A stretch of 64,000 bases of DNA, from positions 1 to 64,000 of the forward strand of contig NZ_SMBP01000006.1 of assembly GCF_004341945.1 (NCBI RefSeq). Direction: 5' to 3'. Both the position numbers and the translations under genes were made by a program. Shown here one piece after another: positions 19,554-35,425 of the stretch (position 1 is its first letter; the number at the start of each line of letters is the position of its first letter). A model generated the notes under the pieces. That model worked only from the letters and a program-made list of their open reading frames with translations, did no database searches and had not been told where the DNA came from. This DNA comes from Longicatena caecimuris. GTDB taxonomy: Bacteria; Bacillota_I; Bacilli_A; Erysipelotrichales; Erysipelotrichaceae.

Positions 19554-20699
19554 TTATTTTAATAACCGCAAGGGATGTATTGCATGCAGGCTACGCATCA
19601 ATTGATAACTGAATTCTTCTAAATTTTTTTCGGTATTCGTTATTGCGTCAGGAAGCGTAACTACGCCGGGTTGAATAGAGAAAACACCGTTAAAATATGT
19701 ATCAAAAGATGAGACTTCTCCTTTTTTCTGTCCACAGACTGCAATTACCGGTACCTGCATCTGCTTTGCGATGGACGCTATACAGACCGGCAGTTTTCCT
19801 TGTAAGCTTTGCTCATCCATTCGACCTTCTCCGGTAATTACTAAGTCCATATCTTTCATGCTGTCTTCAATATGTAAATAAGTATTCAAAAGCGTGAATC
19901 CAGAACTTACGCTTGTCGCAAATAGTGATAAAGCTGCTGCAATACCTCCACCAGCACCATAATAAGGCTGTTTCAGATCACGTTTTAGTAATTTCGCAAC
20001 CAATTGTAATTGATTATCTAAGAAAACAATCTGATCATCTTGTGCTCCCTTTTGTCTTGCGAACATAACAGCCGCACCTTTTTCGCCATATAAAGGAGCA
20101 TCCACATCGCATCCTACTGCTATTTCTACATCCGCAAATTGTTTTAAAACAGTATCCAGACTGTTTTGATCAAGCGTTTTAATCTTTAGCAAGGGATTTT
20201 CGTTTAAACCAAGTTCGCGATGATCCTTATCATGCAACCGGACACCTAATCCCTGAAGCATTCCTAAACCACCATCGGTTGTAATTGTGCCACCTATAAA
20301 AATTATAATTTTTTTATAATCATCCATTTGCAGCTGCTTTAATAAAGTGCCTAATCCAAATGTAGATGTTTGCTTCACTGTATCACGTGATACCTTTTTA
20401 TCATGCAATCCGAAAATGGCCGCTGTTTCAATTGCACAAGTTTTTTTACCATTGTCATAAAAACTCAATACTGCTACTTTACTATCTTCAAAAAAAGCAT
20501 TTTTACATGAATACCAAACCCATTCATAATCTGAAAGTGCATGAGCTAACGCCTGTAAACTATTCTCCCCTCCATCTCCTACCGGAATCACCACTGTGTT
20601 ATCGGCATGATATTTCTTAATACCTTTTTCTATGGCAGTTCCTGCCTGGATAGAAGATGTAGCGCCTTTAAAAGAATCTATTGCTATTACAATCTTCAT
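19554..20699 (-). CDS. Glycerate kinase (GarK/GlxK family)
   Basis: The protein has 381 residues, the usual length. The N-terminus KIVIAIDSFKGATSS and PVGDGGENSLQAL, the central FIGGTITTDGGLGMLQGLG, and DLVITGEGRMDEQSLQGK are hallmark segments of glycerate 2-kinase type I. It phosphorylates glycerate with ATP to 2- (or 3-) phosphoglycerate for glycolysis. It is the last gene before the operon terminator and starts 33 bp after the DUF4430 lipoprotein gene. Its presence in the unit implies that glycerate is a pathway product. Confidence 0.92.
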   Translation of the reverse strand: MKIVIAIDSFKGATSSIQAGTAIEKGIKKYHADNTVVIPVGDGGENSLQALAHALSDYEWVWYSCKNAFFEDSKVAVLSFYDNGKKTCAIETAAIFGLHDKKVSRDTVKQTSTFGLGTLLKQLQMDDYKKIIIFIGGTITTDGGLGMLQGLGVRLHDKDHRELGLNENPLLKIKTLDQNSLDTVLKQFADVEIAVGCDVDAPLYGEKGAAVMFARQKGAQDDQIVFLDNQLQLVAKLLKRDLKQPYYGAGGGIAAALSLFATSVSSGFTLLNTYLHIEDSMKDMDLVITGEGRMDEQSLQGKLPVCIASIAKQMQVPVIAVCGQKKGEVSSFDTYFNGVFSIQPGVVTLPDAITNTEKNLEEFSYQLMRSLHAIHPLRLLK

Positions 20700-20732
20700 T
20701 GTTAATCATCACCCGACCTTTTTCTAATGATC

Positions 20733-21164
20733 TTAAAAGGAAGAAGTGAAGTGGAACGTAAATTGATCTTGATCATTCACTTGTAAAATGTCAATTGCAT
20801 CACACTGCCCCTTTTCCTTGCAAGAGGTATTATTATCTGAATCATATAGCCACCAAGGACCCTTTTTAAAATCTTCTGTTCTTACTCCCAGCATTCCCAT
20901 TAAGGTTGTACCATACTGTCCTTTTGTTGTTTCTACAGCTAATTCATCCGCATGTTGTAAAAAATCCTCTAATGTATGAATATTGCCCTTTACCGTGATA
21001 TCTTTGTTCATTAATTCTTTCTTTTCCACTTCATGAATGACTTGAATATGCAGAGTGATTTCTCGTTCTTTTTGATCAGATTTCACAATCTTTTCATCTT
21101 TTTTCATACATCCGCTTACGCATAGGAAACAAATAATAAGGAATATTTTCCACATCTTATTCAT
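20733..21164 (-). CDS. DUF4430-type lipoprotein
   Basis: The protein has 143 residues. The N-terminal signal with lipobox LCVSGC (Cys about 19) predicts membrane anchoring outside the cell. The rest has the DUF4430 pattern: a GTTLMGMLGV-like segment and KGPWWLYDSDN. That family is related to the transcobalamin C-terminal domain and often accompanies ECF-type uptake genes. It overlaps the ECF S-component gene by 8 bp. I infer a corrinoid-binding surface partner of that transporter. AAAGGAGG precedes the ATG. Confidence 0.8.
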   Translation of the reverse strand: MNKMWKIFLIICFLCVSGCMKKDEKIVKSDQKEREITLHIQVIHEVEKKELMNKDITVKGNIHTLEDFLQHADELAVETTKGQYGTTLMGMLGVRTEDFKKGPWWLYDSDNNTSCKEKGQCDAIDILQVNDQDQFTFHFTSSF

Positions 21165-21675
21165 ATAAAAACCTCCTTTCGATTCGCTCTAATACCGATA
21201 AAACCGGTCTGGCACACACCAAATATAAACAAAAAGATAAAATGAACTGGATTGTTGAAGCCTTGAGTCCAACGATGAAATAAGCAAGCGCAAGATGCTT
21301 CGAAAATAACATAAATGGCAATTGCAGAAATTGTCCAGTGAGAAAAGAAAATAGTCCGCATAAGAATGCCGCAAGCAGAAAATGCTTCTTTAAACACTTA
21401 GCAAATACACTGATCACTAAGCTGTATAATGGATATAACAACAGATACATGAATGACCAAGGAGTCACTCCCTGTATCATCATGTTTAGTGTCGTAAATA
21501 CAAATGCTGCCAATACCGCTTGTTTACGTGGGAAGATCAAGGCAAATACAACAAGTGTAAACGTGATACATTCTAAATATAGGATGTAGGAAAAGGAAGT
21601 AAAAATCAGCAGTTCCAATGCAGCCATAACCGCTATACAACTAAGATTTCGTGCATGCATAAGATTTACTTTCAA
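21157..21675 (-). CDS. ECF transporter substrate-binding (S) component
   Basis: The protein has up to 172 residues from a TTG start; an ATG at 21660 is equally possible and both have weak RBS. It has five or six membrane segments in the S-component style (NLSCIAVMAALELLIF at the start, GVTPWSFMYLLLYPLYSL in the middle, which resembles cobalamin/cobalt-type S components). It would use the shared EcfA-EcfT module encoded elsewhere. Its place beside a DUF4430 lipoprotein and adenosyltransferase, in a unit full of corrinoid enzymes, makes a corrinoid or cobalamin precursor the likely substrate. Confidence 0.78.
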   Translation of the reverse strand: MKVNLMHARNLSCIAVMAALELLIFTSFSYILYLECITFTLVVFALIFPRKQAVLAAFVFTTLNMMIQGVTPWSFMYLLLYPLYSLVISVFAKCLKKHFLLAAFLCGLFSFLTGQFLQLPFMLFSKHLALAYFIVGLKASTIQFILSFCLYLVCARPVLSVLERIERRFLYE

Positions 21676-22144
21676 ATACTATTTCTTCCGTATCCGCTTG
21701 CTGATTCTCATATAAACACATCATAAAAATGATATTTGATAAAAAATTCATAAAGTCCCATAAGATAGGATTTACTGGGATTCCTTCTTGTTTTACAGCA
21801 TTTAAACAGCGTATGACGACCTTTGTTTCTGTTCGAAGGGTATGCAGCCAGCATGCTTGAAGACTTCCGCCGGGCAATACAAAGCACTTCATTTCAACAT
21901 AGTACTTTTCATATAATCTCTCCAATTGTTGCATATCTTCTTGCGTAATTGCACAATTTCCGCGAATAGATCCATTCGCGTGATAGATCATAGATGTCAG
22001 CAGTTGAAGATCATCGCTATCAATTACTTTGACATAATGGGCACATAGCGCTGCTAAAGATGCCAACTTATCGGTCGCTACTTCATAATCACATAATGAT
22101 GATGATTCATCTAAATAGCTGTATGCGCAATATTTCATCTGCAT
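21641..22144 (-). CDS. PduO-type ATP:cob(I)alamin adenosyltransferase-like protein
   Basis: The protein has 167 residues from the ATG at 22144, 7 nt after GAGGAGG. The segment FVLPGGSLQACWLHTLRTETKVV matches the PduO active-site stretch (FVLPGGS-x-x-A-x-LH-x-x-R-T). The final basic ERR-type residues of the family are changed (VVIRCLNAV), so activity is not certain. It would attach the adenosyl group to a reduced corrinoid or act as a corrinoid carrier. Corrinoid methyltransferases use methyl- not adenosylcobamide, so storage, trafficking or repair is a likely role. Confidence 0.72.
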   Translation of the reverse strand: MQMKYCAYSYLDESSSLCDYEVATDKLASLAALCAHYVKVIDSDDLQLLTSMIYHANGSIRGNCAITQEDMQQLERLYEKYYVEMKCFVLPGGSLQACWLHTLRTETKVVIRCLNAVKQEGIPVNPILWDFMNFLSNIIFMMCLYENQQADTEEIVFESKSYACTKS

Positions 22145-22198
22145 GCACATTCCTCCTCTTGATGTACTTCTTGTAATTGTTTGAAACAATACTCTGGT

Positions 22199-24864
<2,666 letters not shown>

Positions 24865-24875
24865 AGGTGCTCCTT

Positions 24876-25838
24876 TCAATTAAGGTGATAGCCTCCTTGC
24901 AATAAAAGATTACATGCTTGATCAATATTCCAGCCTCTGTGATATTCTGTTTCATTGCACTCATCTCTTGGATTACTTCCACACTCTGCATACAATTGAT
25001 TAACACCGGCAAGAATTCCGAGAGATCTTGGTTCATGCATATTCATGGAAATTGATGGATTACATACCAATCTGGTAACTGCCGCAATTTTAGCAAGCTC
25101 AAAATCATCAATTTCTCCATACTTCTTCAACGCACAATCTGAAGTGTTCACACGCGCCATTACCGCCATCACCTTGACATCATATTCTCTGGCACGTAAC
25201 ATTTCTTTTACTATTTCCTCATAGGTGTGTTCCGGTCCTATTGGTTCAATACAATAATATAATTCTAAACCGACGGATTTGATTGCATCCAATGTTTGAA
25301 TTCGTTTTTTCACTGGTATTGCCGTATCAATTCCTTCACGAAGTCTGACTATATGATAAGCACCGTAAAATCCTGCATCCTTTAATGCTTGAGCCTGTGT
25401 TAAAGTAAAATCTTTGATATTCGCTATCAATTTGATATGTGATGGCAGCAAACACTTCACAGCTTTTCCGATATCAAGAAAACGCTGAAAAGGATAGTCT
25501 GCCGTTGTCATTAAAAATAAAGAATCAAGTTTATGAAAAGGTAAGGATACTACCTTTTCAATGACTTCTTCTTTTGATAGTTCCATTTGCATGTCATCAT
25601 GAAATCCATCCATCCGCATTGAACAAAATTTACAATTTCCGGAACAAGGTGCAGCATTCAAACCAATTTGCAGAAATACATATCCCTTGCTTTGATAATG
25701 TGCTTTCGAAATTGCATGTGCTGTTGATAAAAGTTCAAAATAAGATGTAGATAAATTCGTTATGGATAAAAGTTCCAACGCTTCTTTTTCATTCAAAACC
25801 TCATTGTTTGTTGCTTTTTTCAGTATTTGTCGAATCAT
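24876..25838 (-). CDS. Radical SAM enzyme of the BioB/HydE/PylB group
   Basis: The protein has 320 residues. The start at 25838 has GGGAGGT 8 nt upstream; the GTG at 25844 is too close to it. The radical SAM cluster motif is CSGNCKFC (C65, C69, C72). The fold continues with GAYHIVRLREGID and ECGSNPRDECNETEY near the C-terminus, in a BioB-like TIM barrel. No second Fe-S motif is clear. Such PylB-like enzymes appear beside corrinoid methyltransferases and DUF1638 genes; the reaction is unknown. Its first 30 codons are duplicated upstream in the 124-bp tandem repeat. Confidence 0.78.
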   Translation of the reverse strand: MIRQILKKATNNEVLNEKEALELLSITNLSTSYFELLSTAHAISKAHYQSKGYVFLQIGLNAAPCSGNCKFCSMRMDGFHDDMQMELSKEEVIEKVVSLPFHKLDSLFLMTTADYPFQRFLDIGKAVKCLLPSHIKLIANIKDFTLTQAQALKDAGFYGAYHIVRLREGIDTAIPVKKRIQTLDAIKSVGLELYYCIEPIGPEHTYEEIVKEMLRAREYDVKVMAVMARVNTSDCALKKYGEIDDFELAKIAAVTRLVCNPSISMNMHEPRSLGILAGVNQLYAECGSNPRDECNETEYHRGWNIDQACNLLLQGGYHLN

Positions 25839-25992: not shown

Positions 25993-26854
25993 ATGTTGTA
26001 GCTATTTCAGAACTTGATGTGAAACGTGCAGAATACAAAATGACAAGCAGATTATCTTTCTTTCCATCTATGCTTTTCCAAGATAATTGATCCCCTGCAA
26101 GTTCTATATAGAAAGCACCCTCAGCTAAATGTAAATAACCTTTTGCTCGAAAAATTTTATCTTGTAATGTTTCCAAATATTTAAGTAATTTACTTAAAGA
26201 CATATCTTTAGCAATTAGGCACACTGTAGAAGATAAATCCATATATTTCTGATGAATTATTTCTTCATTTGCTTTATTTGTATAATGATCGGTTAAGATT
26301 TGTAAAGGAATTTGACAATAATCCGTTTCTATTATTGGTGTCTGATAGATACTCTCTAAATGTATATGTAATGTTTGCTTTTTTTGCTTAGTCACGAAAG
26401 ATATTTTATTTATTATAATATAATCCGACTGTTGAAGTTGACGATGTAATAAAGGCACTACCCGACTCCATTTTTCAAACGTCACTGCATCTACAACAGT
26501 AATATTGCATATTGAGAATATATATCCCTGTTTCCTTAAATAAGCAAACGTTGATTTTTGCGTACTTGGATCACTGAAACCGCTCGTTTCAATTACAATA
26601 TAGGACAAATCAAAAGACAACATCTGTTGCAACTTATCTAGAAAATCATATTGACGACAAGTACAATAGATAGAACCATGATGAATCTCTGTCATAGGAA
26701 TCGACATCCCTTTAAATTCTTCTTGATCAATGTTCACACTACCAAACTCATTGATACAAAGACCGATTCGTTGTCCTTGTAAAAGATGGATGATGTGCTT
26801 GATCAAGGTTGTTTTTCCACTTCCTAAAAAGCCATGGACACAAATAATTTTCAT
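25925..26854 (-). CDS. CobW/G3E-type GTPase (metallochaperone)
   Basis: The protein has 309 residues. Walker A is GFLGSGKTTL (9-18), followed by NEFGSVNID. A CTC motif in GSIYCTCR corresponds to the metal-binding CxCC of the family. A Walker B region VIETSGFSDP and the guanine motif IINKISF follow. COG0523 proteins load metals such as Zn or Co into target enzymes using GTP. Here the likely clients are the URO-D methyltransferases (Zn) or cobamide-related steps. It overlaps the DUF1638 gene by 4 bp (ATGA). Its C-terminal residues lie in the 124-bp duplication. Confidence 0.82.
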   Translation of the reverse strand: MKIICVHGFLGSGKTTLIKHIIHLLQGQRIGLCINEFGSVNIDQEEFKGMSIPMTEIHHGSIYCTCRQYDFLDKLQQMLSFDLSYIVIETSGFSDPSTQKSTFAYLRKQGYIFSICNITVVDAVTFEKWSRVVPLLHRQLQQSDYIIINKISFVTKQKKQTLHIHLESIYQTPIIETDYCQIPLQILTDHYTNKANEEIIHQKYMDLSSTVCLIAKDMSLSKLLKYLETLQDKIFRAKGYLHLAEGAFYIELAGDQLSWKSIDGKKDNLLVILYSARFTSSSEIATTLHSKIWEVRENDSTNTEKSNKQ

Positions 26855-27501
26855 ATATTTTCTTCTTTCATGACCTCTACCATATCATAAAGACAACATA
26901 TCTTATTTCCCTTTCGCACATGGAGAAGTCCTTGCCCATCTTTTGGTAATAATATATTTTTCAGCTTATCCAATGTTCCCTCTATTACTTCAACTTTATG
27001 AGTTTCCTTTAAGTTCGCTATATTCTCATTGTCTTTTTGAGTATGAAACGTGACGTACAATAACGTTTGCTCATGATACAGCATATGCATTACATAATCT
27101 GCCATTTCTTTTCCATAGCTTTCAATATAAGATGCATATTCCTTATTTTGATCATTGCCATCCATATTTGATAAGCATCTCCAACATGCATTTTTAACCT
27201 GTAAATCCTCAGCACAGTTATCATCACATAAGAGCGCAAAACAGTCATGTACCCTTGGAACATACATATCACAGGTTCTGGCACAAAGGCCTTCAATTGC
27301 ATTTCCACAAATGCCATACAACAAAATAATTTCATCTGCATCGTATGCTTCATCACAAAGACTCTGTAGTTTATCGTGAAGCAGTGAAGGATGATTATGT
27401 GATGCGATGGTTACATAAGTTACCGTATAGGCATATGGCAGTTGCTGCTTGATCTTATCAAAAAAAGGACGAAAAATTTCACATGCTATGATTTGTTTCA
27501 T
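26851..27501 (-). CDS. DUF1638 family protein
   Basis: The protein has 216 residues from the ATG at 27501, overlapping the activator stop (ATGA). The motif IILLYGICGNAIEGL, then PRVHDCFALLCDD, matches DUF1638, a family recurrent in corrinoid methyltransferase clusters. The His and Cys in these motifs could bind a metal or cobamide. The biochemical role is not established. Its coupling to the activator and CobW genes suggests assembly or activation of the methyltransferase. Confidence 0.78.
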   Translation of the reverse strand: MKQIIACEIFRPFFDKIKQQLPYAYTVTYVTIASHNHPSLLHDKLQSLCDEAYDADEIILLYGICGNAIEGLCARTCDMYVPRVHDCFALLCDDNCAEDLQVKNACWRCLSNMDGNDQNKEYASYIESYGKEMADYVMHMLYHEQTLLYVTFHTQKDNENIANLKETHKVEVIEGTLDKLKNILLPKDGQGLLHVRKGNKICCLYDMVEVMKEENI

Positions 27502-28952
27502 AAGAACCACATATGCTCCATATAGGTATCCATGAAGCCTTCTTGTTGTGCCAATTCCACACAGACACCTTCTTTCTGTAAAGTTTCTGCTTTTGACAGC
27601 GCATTTGTTTGCATGATTTGAATAGTTCCTTGCAAAGCACTGTTACCAATTATGGAGCAACGTCCAAGAAATGCTGCCGGTAAGATACCCAGAGTAATCA
27701 ATGTCTGTATCTTTAATGCTTTTCCAAAACCACCTGCGATATAAACATGTTGAATATCCGATGCTGTTAATTGACATATGGCTAATAAGCTTTCGATACC
27801 GGTACGAATGGCCGACTTAGCCAATTGAAAATTGCGAATATCTTCTTGTACAATGGAAACATTTGCAGTTAATTGACATGTTTGTTTTAAATAACCGGTT
27901 TCATCCATATCTTTCATTCTTAATAATTCAGCAATTCCTTCCATATAGCCACTACCGCAAATACCGATTGGTTTCGTATTTCCAATTGTGTTAAAGCACC
28001 AACCGTTTTCGTAACGAATTTGATAAATCGCACCATTGGTTGCTGCCATTCCATGTTTCATATTCCCACCTTCAAAGGCAGGTCCGGCAGCCGTTGACGT
28101 CACATACATCTTCCCGTGATGACATAAGACCAATTCACCATTCGTCCCCAAATCAAGCAGCATCGTATGCTCCTTCATACGCGTACTTAAGGAAATAATA
28201 CCGGCTAAAATATCGCCTCCGACAAAGGCTGAAAAATGGGGTAAGATCGTGATAGGTACCGTCATAGGTAATTGAAACCAATTATCCGTAAGGATCTGTG
28301 TTTCTGTAATAGGACAAGTATATGGATATTCACTGATTTTTCTGGGATCAACGCCTTGAAAGATATGCGCCATGGCAGGATTCCCGCAAACATACATGCA
28401 AGATATTTCTTTTTGAAAGCAGCTTTGAAATGTTTGAATGCTCTTTTTCATCCGCTGCAAGAGAATACTTTGTAATGATTCTACCCCATGTTCATTACAA
28501 TATTGAATTCTCGTTATGACATCAGCGCCGAAACTACGCTGTGGATTTACAAAGGCATCTTCCCATAAAACCTCCCCGGTTTTGCGATCGATATATGCCA
28601 TTACAACAGTAGTAGTTCCTAAATCAATCGCAATGCCGATGCCCTTTTGTGTTTTATTCGCAAATACTTGTTTTTGCAAAGAACCCAGAATGCGAAATCC
28701 GGTTTCTTGATTAATTGAAATTGCTATATCTTCTTCAGCTTTTTCATGACAGCACGCCAAACGTATTCCGGCCTTAATTTCCTCTTTGCTTAACAGCCTT
28801 TTTTCCGTATCCGTTATTGGCATCGCTCCTTGTACAAGCGTAATACGGCATTTCCCGCATGTCTGATTTCCAGCACATGCCGCAGACAGACAAGAATTTT
28901 CTGACAACGTTGACCAAAACGGTTCCGCTTTTTTAAAGCTTAGTTTCATCAT
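27498..28952 (-). CDS. Reductive activator of corrinoid proteins (RACo/RACE-type, ASKHA fold)
   Basis: The protein has about 484 residues. The N-terminal [2Fe-2S] domain has C26, C32 and C35 (CAGNQTCGKC) and the last Cys in LACCH near 67. The ATP-binding ASKHA domain (DUF4445) follows: GIAIDLGTTTVVMAY, MLLDLGTNGELVL and IAGGFGKALKI. The protein reduces inactive cob(II)amide to cob(I)amide with ATP, restarting the methyltransferase. It is shorter than many RACo proteins because the linker region is reduced. It starts 16 bp after the corrinoid protein gene, its expected target. Confidence 0.88.
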   Translation of the reverse strand: MMKLSFKKAEPFWSTLSENSCLSAACAGNQTCGKCRITLVQGAMPITDTEKRLLSKEEIKAGIRLACCHEKAEEDIAISINQETGFRILGSLQKQVFANKTQKGIGIAIDLGTTTVVMAYIDRKTGEVLWEDAFVNPQRSFGADVITRIQYCNEHGVESLQSILLQRMKKSIQTFQSCFQKEISCMYVCGNPAMAHIFQGVDPRKISEYPYTCPITETQILTDNWFQLPMTVPITILPHFSAFVGGDILAGIISLSTRMKEHTMLLDLGTNGELVLCHHGKMYVTSTAAGPAFEGGNMKHGMAATNGAIYQIRYENGWCFNTIGNTKPIGICGSGYMEGIAELLRMKDMDETGYLKQTCQLTANVSIVQEDIRNFQLAKSAIRTGIESLLAICQLTASDIQHVYIAGGFGKALKIQTLITLGILPAAFLGRCSIIGNSALQGTIQIMQTNALSKAETLQKEGVCVELAQQEGFMDTYMEHMWFL

Positions 28953-28968
28953 ACTATCTTTCTTTATC

Positions 28969-29610
28969 TTATGATGATAAGTCAAGCAATCGCTGCGCTA
29001 AGGTTATCGCATCGGGTTCATAAATATCGGCACCAATTTGTTGGCAATATGCCAAGGTGACGGGTGCTCCCCCTACACAAATCTTAACGCTATCGCGTAA
29101 TCCGGCAGCAATTAATGCTTCCACCGTTTGTTTCATGGATGGCATTGAGGTCGTCAGCAAAGCCGACATGCATACATAATCGGGCTGATAGGTCTTTACC
29201 GCTTCAACAAATTTTTCTGGCGCAACATCTACCCCCAGATCAATCACTTCAAAACCTTTTGATTTCAACATCAATCCTACAAGATTTTTACCAATATCAT
29301 GTAAATCCGTCTTAACAGTACCTAATACAATGATTCCTTTCGTCTCAACGTTATGTTTCAATAATTCAGGGCCAATTAAATCCAATCCTGAATTTAAGCA
29401 TCTGGCAGCAATTAACACTTCGGGAATAAACGCTTTGCCCTGTGACCATTTATCAGCAACATTTTGCATAGCTACTAAAAAGGCGTCATTTAATAATACG
29501 GTGGCCGGGATTTGTTCACGCAATGCCTCTTGGACATGCTCATTAAAATCCTTGATCTTTCCTTTTTGCAATTCTGTAATAATTGCCTTTAACAATTCTT
29601 CTCTTGTCAT
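28969..29610 (-). CDS. Corrinoid (methyl-carrier) protein
   Basis: The protein has 213 residues. The N-terminal four-helix cap (1-90, LNDAFLVAMQNVADKW) is followed by a Rossmann B12-binding domain with DLHDIG (102-107), where His104 is the lower cobalt ligand, plus GFEVIDLGVDV and a late GGAPVT. This is the standard MtaC/MtvC-type shuttle. It carries the methyl group between the two methyltransferases encoded directly upstream. AGGAGAG precedes the ATG. Confidence 0.93.
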   Translation of the reverse strand: MTREELLKAIITELQKGKIKDFNEHVQEALREQIPATVLLNDAFLVAMQNVADKWSQGKAFIPEVLIAARCLNSGLDLIGPELLKHNVETKGIIVLGTVKTDLHDIGKNLVGLMLKSKGFEVIDLGVDVAPEKFVEAVKTYQPDYVCMSALLTTSMPSMKQTVEALIAAGLRDSVKICVGGAPVTLAYCQQIGADIYEPDAITLAQRLLDLSS

Positions 29611-29621
29611 TGTTATCTCTC

Positions 29622-30782
29622 CTATTCATCTGATGTGGTAGTTGCTTCTATCCCATACCATTTTTCTTTATCTGCATAAGCGGGAGATGCATGCTGTCCA
29701 TTTCCCTTTTGTTCAATCTGTGATCCATAGCGATATGCTTCTTCCACAAATGCCAAATAGTTTTCCAAAGGTACATTATCCCCAATACGGTTACTGATGG
29801 TATAAATCATCTTACCTTTATGCGGCTGCCAAAAGGTATCTGCTAAGAATCGTGTTTCTGCACGAATATCTTCGACATTGCCAAATGGAAATAAACGCTG
29901 CAAATCAAATCCACACCAAAAGGCCAAATCATCTCCATATGTTTCCACGATTTCTTTTTCATCCATGCAATATTTTTGAACAGGATGCAATACATCAATT
30001 CCGGCTTCTACTAATGATGGTAATAATTCACGGATGTCTCCACAGCTATGGAACCAAACATCAATACCTAATTCATGGGCACGCTCACAAACTTTTTTAT
30101 AGTAAGGTAAGTAAAATTCATCAAATAATTCTTTGGACATAAACGGCCCTGTCTGCATTCCGATATCATCTAACACCGTGATCCCGTCAATATTAGCTTC
30201 CTGTACCCCACGTTCCATCGTCCGTAAAATGTATTTCAAGCGTTTCTGATTCAGTTTATGAACACGCTCGGGTTCCAAATACATATCCAACAGCGTATTT
30301 TGTAACCCTCGGAATTTTACCTGATACCACATGAAGAAAGGCGTGATTGACATTAAGCGATATCTTCCATCTTCTTGTGGCGCTGTTTCAAATAAATCAG
30401 GATGTTCGGCATCCGGACAATTTTCGGAAATCTGTTCAATTACATCCCAATCCAAAGCATTTTCTTCATCAACGGCAACGGATTCTCCCGGCTTTCTTTT
30501 CAATGATGGATCTGCCCCTTCTACATCACAGTAGCAAAACTCCCCCTTTTTCCCAAAAATGGCCGGTTTTTTCATATAAAACGGAGCGGCATCACAAGGC
30601 ATACGTTCATGCAAATCATTGATTGGTTTATGTTTATACTCACTTAATTCATCAACATGAATCCAATGACCATGGATGATAACAGCAGGGCGCAAGGCAC
30701 CTTCACCCTTAATCAGACTGCGAATTTCTTCCCTGGATAATGGCGGATATTCGGCATTAGGGAATTGTTTATATAATGGCAT
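29622..30782 (-). CDS. URO-D family corrinoid methyltransferase
   Basis: The protein has 386 residues of the URO-D fold used by MtaA/MtbA-like and O-demethylase methyltransferases. The zinc ligands are visible: H245 and C247 in WFHSCGD, and C290 in FWCGFD. There is no haem-pathway context, so uroporphyrinogen decarboxylation is unlikely. It probably transfers a methyl group between a substrate and the corrinoid protein encoded 11 bp downstream. The C-terminal ~35 residues (QIEQKGNGQHASPAY on) are polar and outside the fold. Start AGGAGG. Confidence 0.85.
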   Translation of the reverse strand: MPLYKQFPNAEYPPLSREEIRSLIKGEGALRPAVIIHGHWIHVDELSEYKHKPINDLHERMPCDAAPFYMKKPAIFGKKGEFCYCDVEGADPSLKRKPGESVAVDEENALDWDVIEQISENCPDAEHPDLFETAPQEDGRYRLMSITPFFMWYQVKFRGLQNTLLDMYLEPERVHKLNQKRLKYILRTMERGVQEANIDGITVLDDIGMQTGPFMSKELFDEFYLPYYKKVCERAHELGIDVWFHSCGDIRELLPSLVEAGIDVLHPVQKYCMDEKEIVETYGDDLAFWCGFDLQRLFPFGNVEDIRAETRFLADTFWQPHKGKMIYTISNRIGDNVPLENYLAFVEEAYRYGSQIEQKGNGQHASPAYADKEKWYGIEATTTSDE

Positions 30783-32159
30783 TTACTTACCTCCTATTTT
30801 TTTAATGGTACTTAAAAATTCATCTACTGTAGGTATCCGTGAGGACCATATACAGTTTCCATTTACATAAATACAGGGCAGATGCTCTACATTCATTTTT
30901 CGACAACGCGCTATGCTTGCTTTATCTACATACATATATTCGATGTAATCAAAAGCATCACTTTGGCGATGATATGCTTCCTTAACCATATTCATCGTGT
31001 AGGTACATGCTGCACATGTTCGTGAATCTAATGTAAATACTTCGACGATTGGCCGTTGCAAATCATCATAGTGTAAAAGCTCTATTTCGACATCATCGAA
31101 TGTCTGTTCAGGATCATAATATTGTAAAGCTGTTTTAACATTCTCATAATCAGTGACTGCCTGATAACAAGCGATGCCATTCTCTACCGGAACATCAAAG
31201 GGCATATCACAGCCCGGTGATATAATCAAATCATCTGTACCTTCACATTGCTCAATAATATCAATGACCGCCTTCATATTGTCCTGTGAGCTACCATGCA
31301 GCATAGTAATCGTAAGCTGGATATTTCCTCCTAAAACCACATCATATTTTCGGCATACTGCCAAAGCATCCTTCATACACACGTTTTCATCAACCGAGAG
31401 ACAATCTGGTTTCATTCGACATAAGACTTCCAGATTCGCCGTAGCATCCCCACAGACAAACAAGCAGGAAGGAACATGACACGTTTTTAAATGTTGAAAC
31501 AACTCCGCATATGCATCTAGCAAAAACATTTCAATATGCTCAGATGATATTTGCGATAATAAAGGATCGACATAACCGATAATATCCATACCATTTTGCA
31601 GATACATCTGTGCAACAGATGCACAAACCTCTTTACAAAAAGCGATTAATTTATGAACATAATCCGCATCATCATACATATCCATAAAGAGCATTTGTCC
31701 TCGTAAATGTGATGCCAAGGTAAATGGTCCGCAGATCAATCCATATAATGCCGTATGTTCAGAAACAAGTTCCTTCATTTTCCGCATAGCTTTAAGAACA
31801 ATCGGAAACCGTCCATCTTCTTCCTTCGGTATCATGCAGCGACATGGTATCTTTTTTTCATTTTCAAAAGGATGTGTACGGACAGTGGGAGGTACTTTCC
31901 CTCCCTCGTCCCAGTACAGTTCACAACCTAAAGCTTCCGCTTCTAATTGAAGATCGAAAATAACAGGCTGTCCATCCGGATGATAATATGTGTTAACACT
32001 CATCAATGCCTCAACAAGCTTATCTGCATCATGTAAGATTTCATTGGCATCATAGCCACATAGCGAACCTGCATGTACTCCTGCAAAGGGCACCCACGGC
32101 GCTCTTGCGAATCCTTTTTGATGTTGCAATACTGACATCAACAATTGTTTATCACTCAT
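30783..32159 (-). CDS. URO-D family methyltransferase fused to a thioredoxin-like domain
   Basis: The protein has 458 residues. Residues 1-345 are a URO-D domain with GPFTLASHLRG, a Zn-site remnant FVCGD (C236) and SPGCDMP (C317). The usual His two residues before the Cys is Phe234, so metal binding may differ. Residues about 369-458 form a thioredoxin/glutaredoxin-like domain with CAAC (382-385) and a cis-Pro segment EHLPCIYVNG. The fusion suggests redox-controlled or thiol-acceptor methyl transfer. Its stop directly abuts the next gene start. Start AAAGGAGG. Confidence 0.83.
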   Translation of the reverse strand: MSDKQLLMSVLQHQKGFARAPWVPFAGVHAGSLCGYDANEILHDADKLVEALMSVNTYYHPDGQPVIFDLQLEAEALGCELYWDEGGKVPPTVRTHPFENEKKIPCRCMIPKEEDGRFPIVLKAMRKMKELVSEHTALYGLICGPFTLASHLRGQMLFMDMYDDADYVHKLIAFCKEVCASVAQMYLQNGMDIIGYVDPLLSQISSEHIEMFLLDAYAELFQHLKTCHVPSCLFVCGDATANLEVLCRMKPDCLSVDENVCMKDALAVCRKYDVVLGGNIQLTITMLHGSSQDNMKAVIDIIEQCEGTDDLIISPGCDMPFDVPVENGIACYQAVTDYENVKTALQYYDPEQTFDDVEIELLHYDDLQRPIVEVFTLDSRTCAACTYTMNMVKEAYHRQSDAFDYIEYMYVDKASIARCRKMNVEHLPCIYVNGNCIWSSRIPTVDEFLSTIKKIGGK

Positions 32160-32174: not shown

Positions 32175-33722
32175 TTAATCTTCTAATCCTAACGCTTCAC
32201 AAACCCTTGTGCGATGATCTCTTGCGGCAGGTCCATAAATCACTTGAATGTATTTGCCATTCATGGCGATTCCACTATTGCCTGTTTTATTCAGCATCTC
32301 TTTATTTACAAGAGTTTCATCCTTCACATCAACACGCAAACGTGTAAAACAATTGCTTACTGCAAGAATGTTATCCTTGCCTCCCAAACCTTCAATAATC
32401 AATCCGGTAATCATATCTTTATCAGAAATAGTCACTTCACCATCTGTGTTTAATGCCAATTGAGAATCACTAAGATCTTCTAAATTATCGGTACGACCAG
32501 GTGTCTTTAAATTGAATTTCACAATGAGGAACTTAAAGACAAAGAACCAGGTAATCGTCGCAATCGGACCTAAAATCAATGCTAAAGGCCATTTGGTCAA
32601 TCCAGCTCCTAATACAAAATTCTGTAAGATGGTTTCTAATAATCCACGCCAGTATACTTGTATACCAATCAGATAAGCAACTGTCGCAAATACCCCGGTA
32701 AGAACGGCATCGACAACCCATAATAACGGCGCACAGAAGATAAAGAGGAATAGCATCGGCTCCCCAAGTCCAGCCATGACGCAAGCAATACATGCCGGAA
32801 TCACCAATTTCTTAATCTTTGCTTTATTTTCGGGTTTCGCAGTCGCAATAATAGCCATTGCAATTCCAGGGAAACCAAAGATAACGGAAATATTCGTCTG
32901 GAAGAATCGCATGGATTCATGCAAAGAAGTAATACTATTAGCATTTGCTAATTCTGCTAAAGCGATTGGTTGTGCTCCTGCATATACCTGTCCTGCTATT
33001 TCAGCAACACCACCTAATTCAGTATAGAATAATGGTGTCCAGATAAAATGATGCAAACCGGTCGGAATTAATAGACGTTTCAAGAAGTCGTAGAGGAATA
33101 CACCGATACCACCGGATTCTCCTAAGAATTGTGTAATACTATAGATCACGCCGGATAATAACGGCCATACATAAACAGCAATTAGAGAAAAGGCAAAGGC
33201 TACAAAAATTAATAAGAAATAGGTAAATTTAGCACCGCCAAATGGCTCTAGCAACCCTTTAAAGGAAGTTGAACTAAACTTATTATGCATATAACCGACT
33301 AGGCAACCTAAAATGATTCCAAGGAAGACACCCATATCGGTAATTTGCATGCCAAGCTCCATTTTCTGACCTGTCCCCATCAGCATTTCAGCATCTGACA
33401 GTTTTCCAGTCACATTCAACATGGCATTGTTTAAGGACATAAAGGTTAAATACGTTAATACAACAAGAATGGCTGCTTCCATTTTGTTTCTTTTAGCGAA
33501 ATGTGTTGCCAAGGCAATGGCAAACAGAATGCTCAGGTTTCCAATGATATATGTCATTGCTCCAGATATTTGTTTTGCGAAAGTGCTTACGATGTCTGGC
33601 ATAAAATCAAACTGCAAAATCTGACAAATAGCCACTACAATTCCCATAAGTGCCGCAAAAAATACAGGCTGTAAAATACCACGAGCAAAGCTTTGCATGG
33701 TTCTTGATATTTTTTCTTTCAT
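32175..33722 (-). CDS. PTS EIICB, glucose/alpha-glucoside type
   Basis: The protein has 515 residues. The N-terminal EIIC (about 1-420) has ten or so membrane segments and LIPTGLHHFIWTPLFY, a hallmark of the glucose/maltose branch. The C-terminal EIIB has the phosphorylated Cys in LAVSNCFTRLRVDV (about 457). It imports and phosphorylates its sugar using the EIIA encoded at 34824-35312. There is no normal RBS next to the ATG. AAAGGAG is about 35 nt upstream, with a hairpin (TAACATTCAA/TTGAACGTTA) between. It follows a LicT-controlled terminator. Confidence 0.92.
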   Translation of the reverse strand: MKEKISRTMQSFARGILQPVFFAALMGIVVAICQILQFDFMPDIVSTFAKQISGAMTYIIGNLSILFAIALATHFAKRNKMEAAILVVLTYLTFMSLNNAMLNVTGKLSDAEMLMGTGQKMELGMQITDMGVFLGIILGCLVGYMHNKFSSTSFKGLLEPFGGAKFTYFLLIFVAFAFSLIAVYVWPLLSGVIYSITQFLGESGGIGVFLYDFLKRLLIPTGLHHFIWTPLFYTELGGVAEIAGQVYAGAQPIALAELANANSITSLHESMRFFQTNISVIFGFPGIAMAIIATAKPENKAKIKKLVIPACIACVMAGLGEPMLFLFIFCAPLLWVVDAVLTGVFATVAYLIGIQVYWRGLLETILQNFVLGAGLTKWPLALILGPIATITWFFVFKFLIVKFNLKTPGRTDNLEDLSDSQLALNTDGEVTISDKDMITGLIIEGLGGKDNILAVSNCFTRLRVDVKDETLVNKEMLNKTGNSGIAMNGKYIQVIYGPAARDHRTRVCEALGLED

Positions 33723-33883: not shown

Positions 33884-33950
33884 TTCAAAAAAACAAGACC
33901 CGATGATAAAGTAGCGCAACTCTTTCCTGTGCGTACTTATCACCGGGTCT
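33884..33950 (-). terminator. Conditional terminator overlapped by the RAT before EIICB
   Basis: On the minus strand, AGACCCGGTGATAA (33937-33950) pairs with TTATCATCGGGTCT (33896-33909), followed by a U-rich tract (33884-33894). Its 5' arm overlaps the RAT at 33943-33970, so LicT binding prevents it forming. Confidence 0.9.
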
Positions 33951-34823: not shown

Positions 34824-35312
34824 TTATTGCTTCTTATTGCAAATACTGGCGATGGCTGTCTTCCCCTGCGTGACTAAGTTCTCACTGTACAACTGAATAC
34901 GCTCACTTTCGCAATCCATGAAAATTAAAATGGTATCTGTATTTATGTTTTTTTCTTTAAAGAATTGTCTGTCAACCTTGATTAAAGGATCACCGACCTT
35001 TACTTCTGCATTTTTTGTCGTCAGCACCTGTAGACCCTCTCCTTTATACATGCATGTATCAACACCTACATGAACAAGTATATTGACACTTTCATTTTTC
35101 ACAATGACTGCATGCTTCGTATCTGCAATCATCTCAATTGTTCCTGATATTGGGGAAAAAACGTAAGCGTCATCGGTTTTGATAGCGATTCCTTCTCCCA
35201 TCATCTTTGTGCTGAAAATATCATCCTTCACCTGTTCCAGCGCATATAAACACCCGGAATTCGATGAATAAACCTCAATTTTTTGATTTTTTGGCTTAAA
35301 AAAACGTAACAT
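34824..35312 (-). CDS. PTS EIIA, glucose (Crr-like) type
   Basis: The protein has 162 residues from the ATG at 35312, which follows GGAGGT by 4 nt. It has the EIIA-Glc fold: VFSPISGTIEMI, KHAVIVK and the active-site NILVHVGVDT with the phosphorylated His. It donates phosphate to the EIIB domain of 32175-33722. It is the first gene of the unit, followed by licT after 2 bp. Confidence 0.92.
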   Translation of the reverse strand: MLRFFKPKNQKIEVYSSNSGCLYALEQVKDDIFSTKMMGEGIAIKTDDAYVFSPISGTIEMIADTKHAVIVKNESVNILVHVGVDTCMYKGEGLQVLTTKNAEVKVGDPLIKVDRQFFKEKNINTDTILIFMDCESERIQLYSENLVTQGKTAIASICNKKQ

Positions 35313-35351
35313 AATTACCTCCATTAAAAAGTATACAAGTTATTACTATAA

Positions 35352-35425
35352 CTCATGCCTGTTTTTAACAGTAACACGTTACAAGTATATTATAAGCCAT
35401 TTATGGCCATTGTCAAGCGCTTACA
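35352..35425 (-). promoter_or_regulatory. Operon promoter with cre-like site and leader RAT-like element
   Basis: On the minus strand, TTGACA (35411-35416), a 16-bp spacer and TATAAT (35389-35394) form a strong promoter. The -35 lies inside TGTAAGCGCTTGACA (35411-35425), a near match to the CcpA cre consensus with one extra base, suggesting glucose repression. The transcript starts with a RAT-like GTGTTACTG...CAGGC (35352-35382), followed by a small hairpin AGTTAT/ATAACT and a short U run. LicT may therefore also control its own expression. Confidence 0.78.

Follow-up and report, generated by a model that had tools for sequence, protein, structure and literature searches.

The methyl acceptor is tetrahydrofolate (H4folate) in known bacterial corrinoid demethylases and coenzyme M in methanogens, and the known H4folate MT2 proteins belong, together with MetH and FolP, to the family PF00809. 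A close known system to the protein analyzed here, UroD-Trx, is that of the methylcobamide:coenzyme M methyltransferases MtaA/MtbA (TIGR01463, NF040654, PDB 4AY7/4AY8), which resemble it in fold, two zinc cysteines, a glutamate at +22, and a partner corrinoid protein with its activase. UroD-Trx differs from them in a phenylalanine in place of the zinc histidine, an extra invariant histidine (H151), and a fused thioredoxin-like domain; moreover, its hosts are not coenzyme M organisms and it scores far under the family cut-offs. The Mlp proteins of type 1 mlp clusters (Kountz and Balskus, PMC10418091) are likewise MtaA-like bacterial UroDs found with a corrinoid protein and Ram/RACo and no folate methylase, but they are reported to have a His-Cys-Cys site and selenium or sulfur gene neighbors, and a thioredoxin fusion was not found in PMC10418091. 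The type 1 mlp (Mlp2 plus Mlp3) cluster content without a folate methylase is matched by our locus, whereas the His-Cys-Cys sphere is not: F234 is invariant in UroD-Trx, and the neighboring protein UroD2 lacks a cysteine at the column of C317. The bacterial corrinoid O-demethylases (vanillate/veratrol; Cdm system, PMC13222342) also use a UroD-superfamily MT1, a corrinoid protein, and a RACo-type activase; their MT2 is a pterin-binding protein that yields methyl-H4folate, whereas here UroD-Trx occupies that place and the MT1s lie in sugar loci. MetE shares the cysteine, the glutamate at +22, the second cysteine past the last barrel strand, and thiol activation, but has a double barrel, retains the histidine ligand, and uses a folate donor; this likeness is seen by structure only.

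UroD-Trx is encoded in a 64,000-nucleotide stretch of DNA from the gut bacterium Longicatena caecimuris (hereafter, the window). The first-pass annotation had described a URO-D domain fused to a thioredoxin-like domain carrying CAAC (382-385) and a cis-Pro loop, and the URO-D profile match and the predicted structure, an MtaA-like barrel followed by a thioredoxin-like domain, agree with this layout. The features of the gene are as follows:

30783..32159, minus strand: UroD-Trx fusion protein, proposed MT2, 458 aa
31149..32111, minus strand: URO-D (MtaA-like) barrel, residues 17-337, Pfam PF01208, E 4.8e-48
31707..31709, minus strand: H151, candidate replacement ligand, in 54/54 of the family and 0/8 HxC..C relatives
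31458..31460, minus strand: F234, at the MtaA zinc His position, F in 54/54
31452..31454, minus strand: C236, presumed zinc ligand, 54/54
31386..31388, minus strand: E258, 22 residues past C236, 54/54 (compare MetE Cys620 to Glu642)
31209..31211, minus strand: C317, presumed zinc ligand, 54/54
30792..31049, minus strand: thioredoxin-like domain, residues 371-456, by a Thioredoxin_3 match just short of its cut-off and strand/helix order of the model
31005..31016, minus strand: CAAC motif, residues 382-385, C382 in 52/53 and C385 in 53/53

Residues 379-451 matched Thioredoxin_3 (PF13192) at 24.4 bits against a gathering cut-off of 24.8, and the AlphaFold model showed a beta-alpha-beta-alpha-beta-beta-alpha order in this domain. 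The CxxC and the conserved loop proline expected of Thioredoxin_3 are both present, the proline (P428) being kept in 53/53 relatives. The best NCBIfam match of the protein was TIGR01463 (MtaA/CmuA), at 132.8 bits, which does not reach the cut-off of 235.4, and the HemE model (TIGR01464) gave 53.1 bits, short of its cut-off of 302.95. By Pfam, UroD-Trx is a URO-D barrel and does not have the pterin-binding PF00809 fold of MT2 proteins; it may work like the MT2 of corrinoid demethylases without belonging to the pterin-binding MT2 family. An origin by frameshift or assembly fusion was ruled out, because three phyla contain intact relatives that match it in length and domain order.

The AlphaFold model, built from 17 sequences, had a mean pLDDT of 91.8 and a pTM of 0.88. 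Foldseek placed MtaA first (TM 0.91 by target length, E 3.7e-20), with UroDs next and then MetE. In VIA-align comparisons, which bear on the barrel and barely cover the thioredoxin domain, the MtaA fold spanned the whole barrel (4ay8, Z 42.9, 1.7 A, 327 residues), and Z was about 36 for UroDs and about 22 for MetE. Phylogenetic analysis with the motif columns omitted recovered the UroD-Trx family as one clade (SH-aLRT 100), nested in an HxC..C S-methyltransferase-like group with MtaA (SH-aLRT 98) and far from UroD2; the tree search was quick and had no bootstrap, and outside the family several branches are long.

A scan with one genome per species revealed 16 full-length relatives, in Holdemanella, Oscillibacter, Flavonifractor, and other Bacillota, in Spirochaetota, and in Chloroflexota. 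Within the window organism's own family, 4 of 272 genomes carried the fusion, as did 40 of 391 (about 10%) in a Clostridia-class sample. One member (L016 6463-7818) has S-T-M-C at the CxxC, with the second cysteine only, and is the lone exception at this motif. At L006 3-854, immediately 5' of a full UroD-Trx, lies a UroD paralogue with an FVCG motif that is truncated at the contig start and has its own stop codon ahead of any thioredoxin domain. Since L016 lacks C382 and the L006 paralogue lacks the thioredoxin domain, the dithiol is not strictly needed. Separate small thioredoxin-like proteins (CTSC or CTAC) are encoded immediately after UroD-Trx at L009 11362-12147 and L011 11421-11720, and one UroD-Trx frame (G818:C1:4661250-4662554) contains three TGA and one TAA and is probably a pseudogene. 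Searches of open-licence papers found neither a UroD methyltransferase that acts on sugars or is fused to thioredoxin nor any description or biochemistry of a family member; the family is widespread, yet apparently undescribed.

In all, 54 UroD-Trx sequences were aligned, 53 of which extend into the CxxC region. MtaA 4AY7 ranked first in a PDB sequence search, and its alignment placed F234 on the zinc histidine, C236 on the first cysteine, and C317 on the second, in agreement with the earlier proposal that Phe234 stands instead of the first zinc histidine and that C317 is retained. H96, H151, F234, V235, C236, E258, C317, and D318 are invariant (54/54). The His-x-Cys ... Cys motif of TIGR01463 proteins is replaced by Phe-x-Cys ... 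Cys in all 54, and the altered site is real and fixed across the whole family. H151 lies in the active-site helix and aligns with a tyrosine of plant UroD, at the position of active-site Tyr164 in human UroD; H151 has no counterpart in any of the eight HxC..C relatives compared, MtaA among them. We infer that H151 replaces the lost histidine ligand. The zinc of MetE is bound by His618, Cys620, Glu642, and Cys704 (PMC539065); compared with this His-Cys-Glu-Cys set, UroD-Trx keeps three ligands, with phenylalanine for histidine and E258 at the identical +22 spacing. Because the MetE-type glutamate E258 and the active-site histidine H151 are both invariant, the altered site is probably not crippled. 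The FxC..C site is thus no isolated defect; it marks out a family of wide distribution. In crystals of MetE lacking zinc, Cys620 and Cys704 form a disulfide (PMC539065), which makes it plausible that the thioredoxin domain serves as a redox guard of the equivalent C236/C317 thiolates, one of the two roles put forward in the first-pass annotation.

The fusion gene belongs to a 16-gene operon on one strand with small gaps, which begins with EIIA (35324) and ends with glycerate kinase (19554). The genes follow the order below, with UroD-Trx between EIIBC and UroD2 and an unassigned small protein between the ECF-like protein and glycerate kinase:

34824..35324, minus strand: PTS EIIA (glucose type), PF00358
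33976..34821, minus strand: LicT/BglG-type antiterminator, CAT_RBD and two PRD
33896..33950, minus strand: terminator hairpin between the licT-like gene and EIIBC, -35.4 kcal/mol, z -5.1
32175..33722, minus strand: PTS EIIBC, glucose/alpha-glucoside family, profile matches
29622..30782, minus strand: UroD2, plain UroD, proposed substrate-specific MT1 demethylase, PF01208, E 1.2e-16
28969..29610, minus strand: corrinoid protein, B12-binding and B12-binding_2, NCBIfam MtgC/MtbC relatives
27498..28985, minus strand: RACo-type corrinoid reductive activase, RACo_C_ter and Raco_middle
26851..27510, minus strand: DUF1638 protein, PF07796
25925..26854, minus strand: CobW/COG0523 GTPase, proposed zinc chaperone, PF02492
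24876..25844, minus strand: BioB/PylB-like radical SAM protein, Pfam/NCBIfam matches
23557..24879, minus strand: LarA-family nickel 2-hydroxyacid racemase, NF033504, 594.9 bits (cut-off 460)
22199..23542, minus strand: GH4 glycosidase with a CDMP motif, PF02056/PF11975
21641..22189, minus strand: PduO-type cobalamin adenosyltransferase-like protein, PF01923
21157..21675, minus strand: ECF-transporter S-component-like membrane protein, weak match
19554..20699, minus strand: glycerate kinase, TIGR00045, 314.6 bits (above cut-off)

The CDMP motif of the GH4 enzyme is the 6-phospho-alpha-glucosidase signature, and the LarA-type racemase, GH4 enzyme, and glycerate kinase (19554-24879) together give a hint that the substrate is a glycosylated hydroxyacid such as glucosylglycerate. 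The hairpin at 33896..33950 is consistent with antitermination. A fixed-spacing search for the RAT pattern gave one near match 5' of EIIA (35359-35376), with a total count not above chance; a cre pattern search found no informative site, and Rfam found neither a cobalamin riboswitch nor any other family in the 12-42 kb part of the window. Fitness data connect both DUF1638 and RACo-type proteins with the reactivation of B12 (PMC5764234). In unrelated Clostridia, at L157 5753-6742 and L165 11362-12339, the gene 3' of CobW by UroD-Trx likewise encodes a BioB/PylB-like radical SAM protein, with about 45% identity to that of the window.

Of 16 genomes with UroD-Trx, 15 encode a close corrinoid protein. 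Among 47 UroD-Trx loci that extend far enough to show the next gene, 34 have a CobW/COG0523 gene in that place, in the same orientation. COG0523 subfamily 13 had already been placed beside corrinoid methyltransferases, among them MtaA and MtaB, which are zinc enzymes (PMC2770081); the simplest reading is that CobW would deliver zinc to UroD-Trx. The fusion occurs with a UroD-type MT1 in the window, L021, L022, and L161, and with an MttB-type MT1 in L164, L166, and L167 (Pfam-shown in L164 and L166). In the latter three loci, betaine-type (BCCT-like) transporters, a corrinoid protein, and RACo lie beside it, so UroD-Trx is not confined to sugar substrates. No MtrH was found in the UroD-type or MttB-type clusters examined. 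Since one partner serves two unrelated MT1 families, UroD-Trx behaves like a shared MT2.

Sugar genes lie close to the fusion, plain UroD, and corrinoid protein in the window (GH4/PTS) and in L161 (galactitol-type PTS); GH36 and alpha-amylase genes lie near such clusters in L027 and L028, respectively, and L021/L022 have a HUMPS-family and SIS-domain pair and a DeoC-type aldolase. No recurrent sulfur-metabolism gene that would name the acceptor was found beside UroD-Trx loci. By eye, a gene for a PocR-sensor-like regulator often stands ahead of that for the corrinoid protein (L030, L037, L038, L042, L152, L159, L171).

The neighboring UroD2 had been credited with a full H245/C247/C290 zinc site. 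H245 and C247 are indeed conserved, but almost every relative has Val, Ala, or Gly in place of C290, which rules out C290 as a zinc ligand, and the column matching C317 and the second zinc cysteine of MtaA holds N331. The AlphaFold model of UroD2, drawn from two sequences only, had a pLDDT of 47 and was left out of the comparisons. In plain UroDs of fusion-bearing genomes, the usual pattern is H-x-C or H-x-D, with His or Asn in the C317 column. As departures from His-Cys-Cys are typical of O-methyltransferases according to Kountz and Balskus (PMC10418091), UroD2 would most likely remove the methyl group from an oxygen compound.

URO-D family members number two in the window's genome and up to 50 in other fusion-bearing genomes, whereas UroD-Trx usually occurs once and sometimes twice per genome, as would be expected if a single MT2 served many MT1s. 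We compared 114 neighbors of 25 plain UroDs from six genomes with 114 control proteins from the same genomes. The neighbors included AraC regulators (7/114), ABC sugar permeases (6), and LacI-type regulators (4), as well as solute-binding proteins and sulfatases, and all of these families fell outside the 25 commonest of the controls. In L082-L101 (G639, G633, G627, G610, G630, G634), plain UroDs, mostly with H-x-C/D and a His or Asn as the third residue of the site, are often encoded among genes for sugar ABC transporters, sulfatases, glycosidases, and rhamnose catabolism; the L097 region contains a rhamnose isomerase, a class II aldolase, and a kinase.

Eight of 59 fusion-bearing genomes lacked PF00809 (G167, G168, G369, G625, G630, G638, G678, G848), and 11 of 22 had no MTHFR, among them five of the six near-complete genomes; where both are absent, methyl-H4folate would have no evident use. 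Some fusion-bearing genomes hold many MtrH-sized proteins elsewhere. The window genome has a single pterin-binding protein, MetH-sized (793 aa frame), with no stand-alone AcsE/MtrH-sized one, and encodes MTHFR, so the system may have a folate link there. The operon itself has no visible Wood-Ljungdahl genes, as the first-pass annotation had remarked, and its suggestion of an unusual corrinoid methyl-transfer design outside that pathway gains support from the gene context and from conservation throughout the family. Both its S-methyltransferase ancestry and its Cys/Cys/Glu site suit UroD-Trx to a thiol acceptor. Anaerobic O-demethylation accompanied by methylation of sulfide has been documented (PMC7374477, PMC8359953), and sulfide is thus an obvious candidate for the acceptor.

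We hold with moderate confidence that UroD-Trx is the common MT2 of an H4folate-independent corrinoid demethylation system with a zinc-activated thiol acceptor. Its domains, invariant residues, fold, clade, gene partners, and the pterin proteins missing from some genomes were observed; reaction direction, acceptor, metal, role of the thioredoxin domain, and substrate are predicted from them. A substrate-specific MT1 (UroD2; elsewhere plain UroDs or MttB-type proteins) would demethylate a methylated sugar, or a compound related to one, and load the methyl group onto Co(I) of the corrinoid protein, which RACo and DUF1638 would maintain in the reduced state. UroD-Trx would then transfer the methyl group of CH3-Co(III) to a thiol. 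This acceptor, sulfide or a small thiol like homocysteine, would be activated by a zinc bound to C236, C317, and E258, with H151 substituting for the usual histidine and CobW as the putative zinc supplier. The thioredoxin-like domain would most likely hold C236/C317 reduced and metal-loaded, or supply the sulfur acceptor. In the window, this system would be co-expressed with the PTS/GH4 sugar operon under LicT-type control.

The resemblance to type 1 mlp gene clusters raises the alternative that UroD-Trx is an Mlp-like methylthiol or methylselenide demethylase that loads a methyl group from a sulfur or selenium compound onto the corrinoid protein. The cluster is alike (several UroDs, a corrinoid protein, Ram/RACo, no folate methylase) and Mlp2 reacts with selenide (PMC10418091), but Mlp zinc sites are reported as His-Cys-Cys with few exceptions, in contrast to the phenylalanine of all 54 UroD-Trx sequences, and the UroD-Trx neighborhoods are those of sugar or betaine catabolism, with no selenium or methionine genes; we consider this unlikely. 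That UroD-Trx instead methylates H4folate, as an unrecognized substitute for MtrH/AcsE-type proteins, would account for its position in the expected MT2 place, and MetE, which has the same fold, binds methyl-H4folate. However, in G167, G168, G369, G625, and G630, which have neither pterin-binding proteins nor MTHFR, methyl-H4folate would be a dead end, and this reading appears quite improbable.

A cysteine of the thioredoxin domain could itself accept the methyl group, as the first-pass annotation had suggested, either by carrying it transiently or in the form of a persulfide that leaves as methanethiol, in line with the CxxC kept in 52/53, its fusion in cis to the catalytic barrel, and the separate thioredoxin-like genes adjoining the fusion in L009 and L011. 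Such a role has little probability in our view, given that thiol exchange could not free a plain cysteine thioether, that L016 lacks C382, and that L006 has a paralogue without the domain. The loss of the usual histidine, the fused thioredoxin domain, and the steady pairing with the CobW chaperone would also suit a protein without methyltransferase activity that uses a dead UroD fold for redox or maturation tasks, such as repair of zinc or of the corrinoid protein. We find this hard to credit: a dead site would not keep C236, E258, C317, D318, and H151 all invariant, and the MttB- and UroD-type clusters would be left without an MT2.

A shared MT2 with a thiol acceptor thus remains our preferred reading, and UroD-Trx offers a concrete protein for the assay of a folate-independent methyl exit. 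Its presence in about 10% of the sampled Clostridia-class genomes, some of them without a pterin-binding protein, implies a third methyl exit, and the ties of dozens of plain UroDs, commonly annotated as uroporphyrinogen decarboxylases, to sugar-utilization loci suggest anaerobic demethylation of methylated sugars. A bolder and rather doubtful proposal is that UroD-Trx founds a class of folate- and coenzyme M-independent MT2s that pass methyl groups of carbohydrates and betaines to sulfide or to a thioredoxin-borne persulfide, with methanethiol released. If true, UroD-Trx would be a candidate for the still-missing enzyme of sulfide methylation in anaerobic demethylation, and gut and sediment anaerobes would have a corrinoid route for stripping methyl ethers off sugars.
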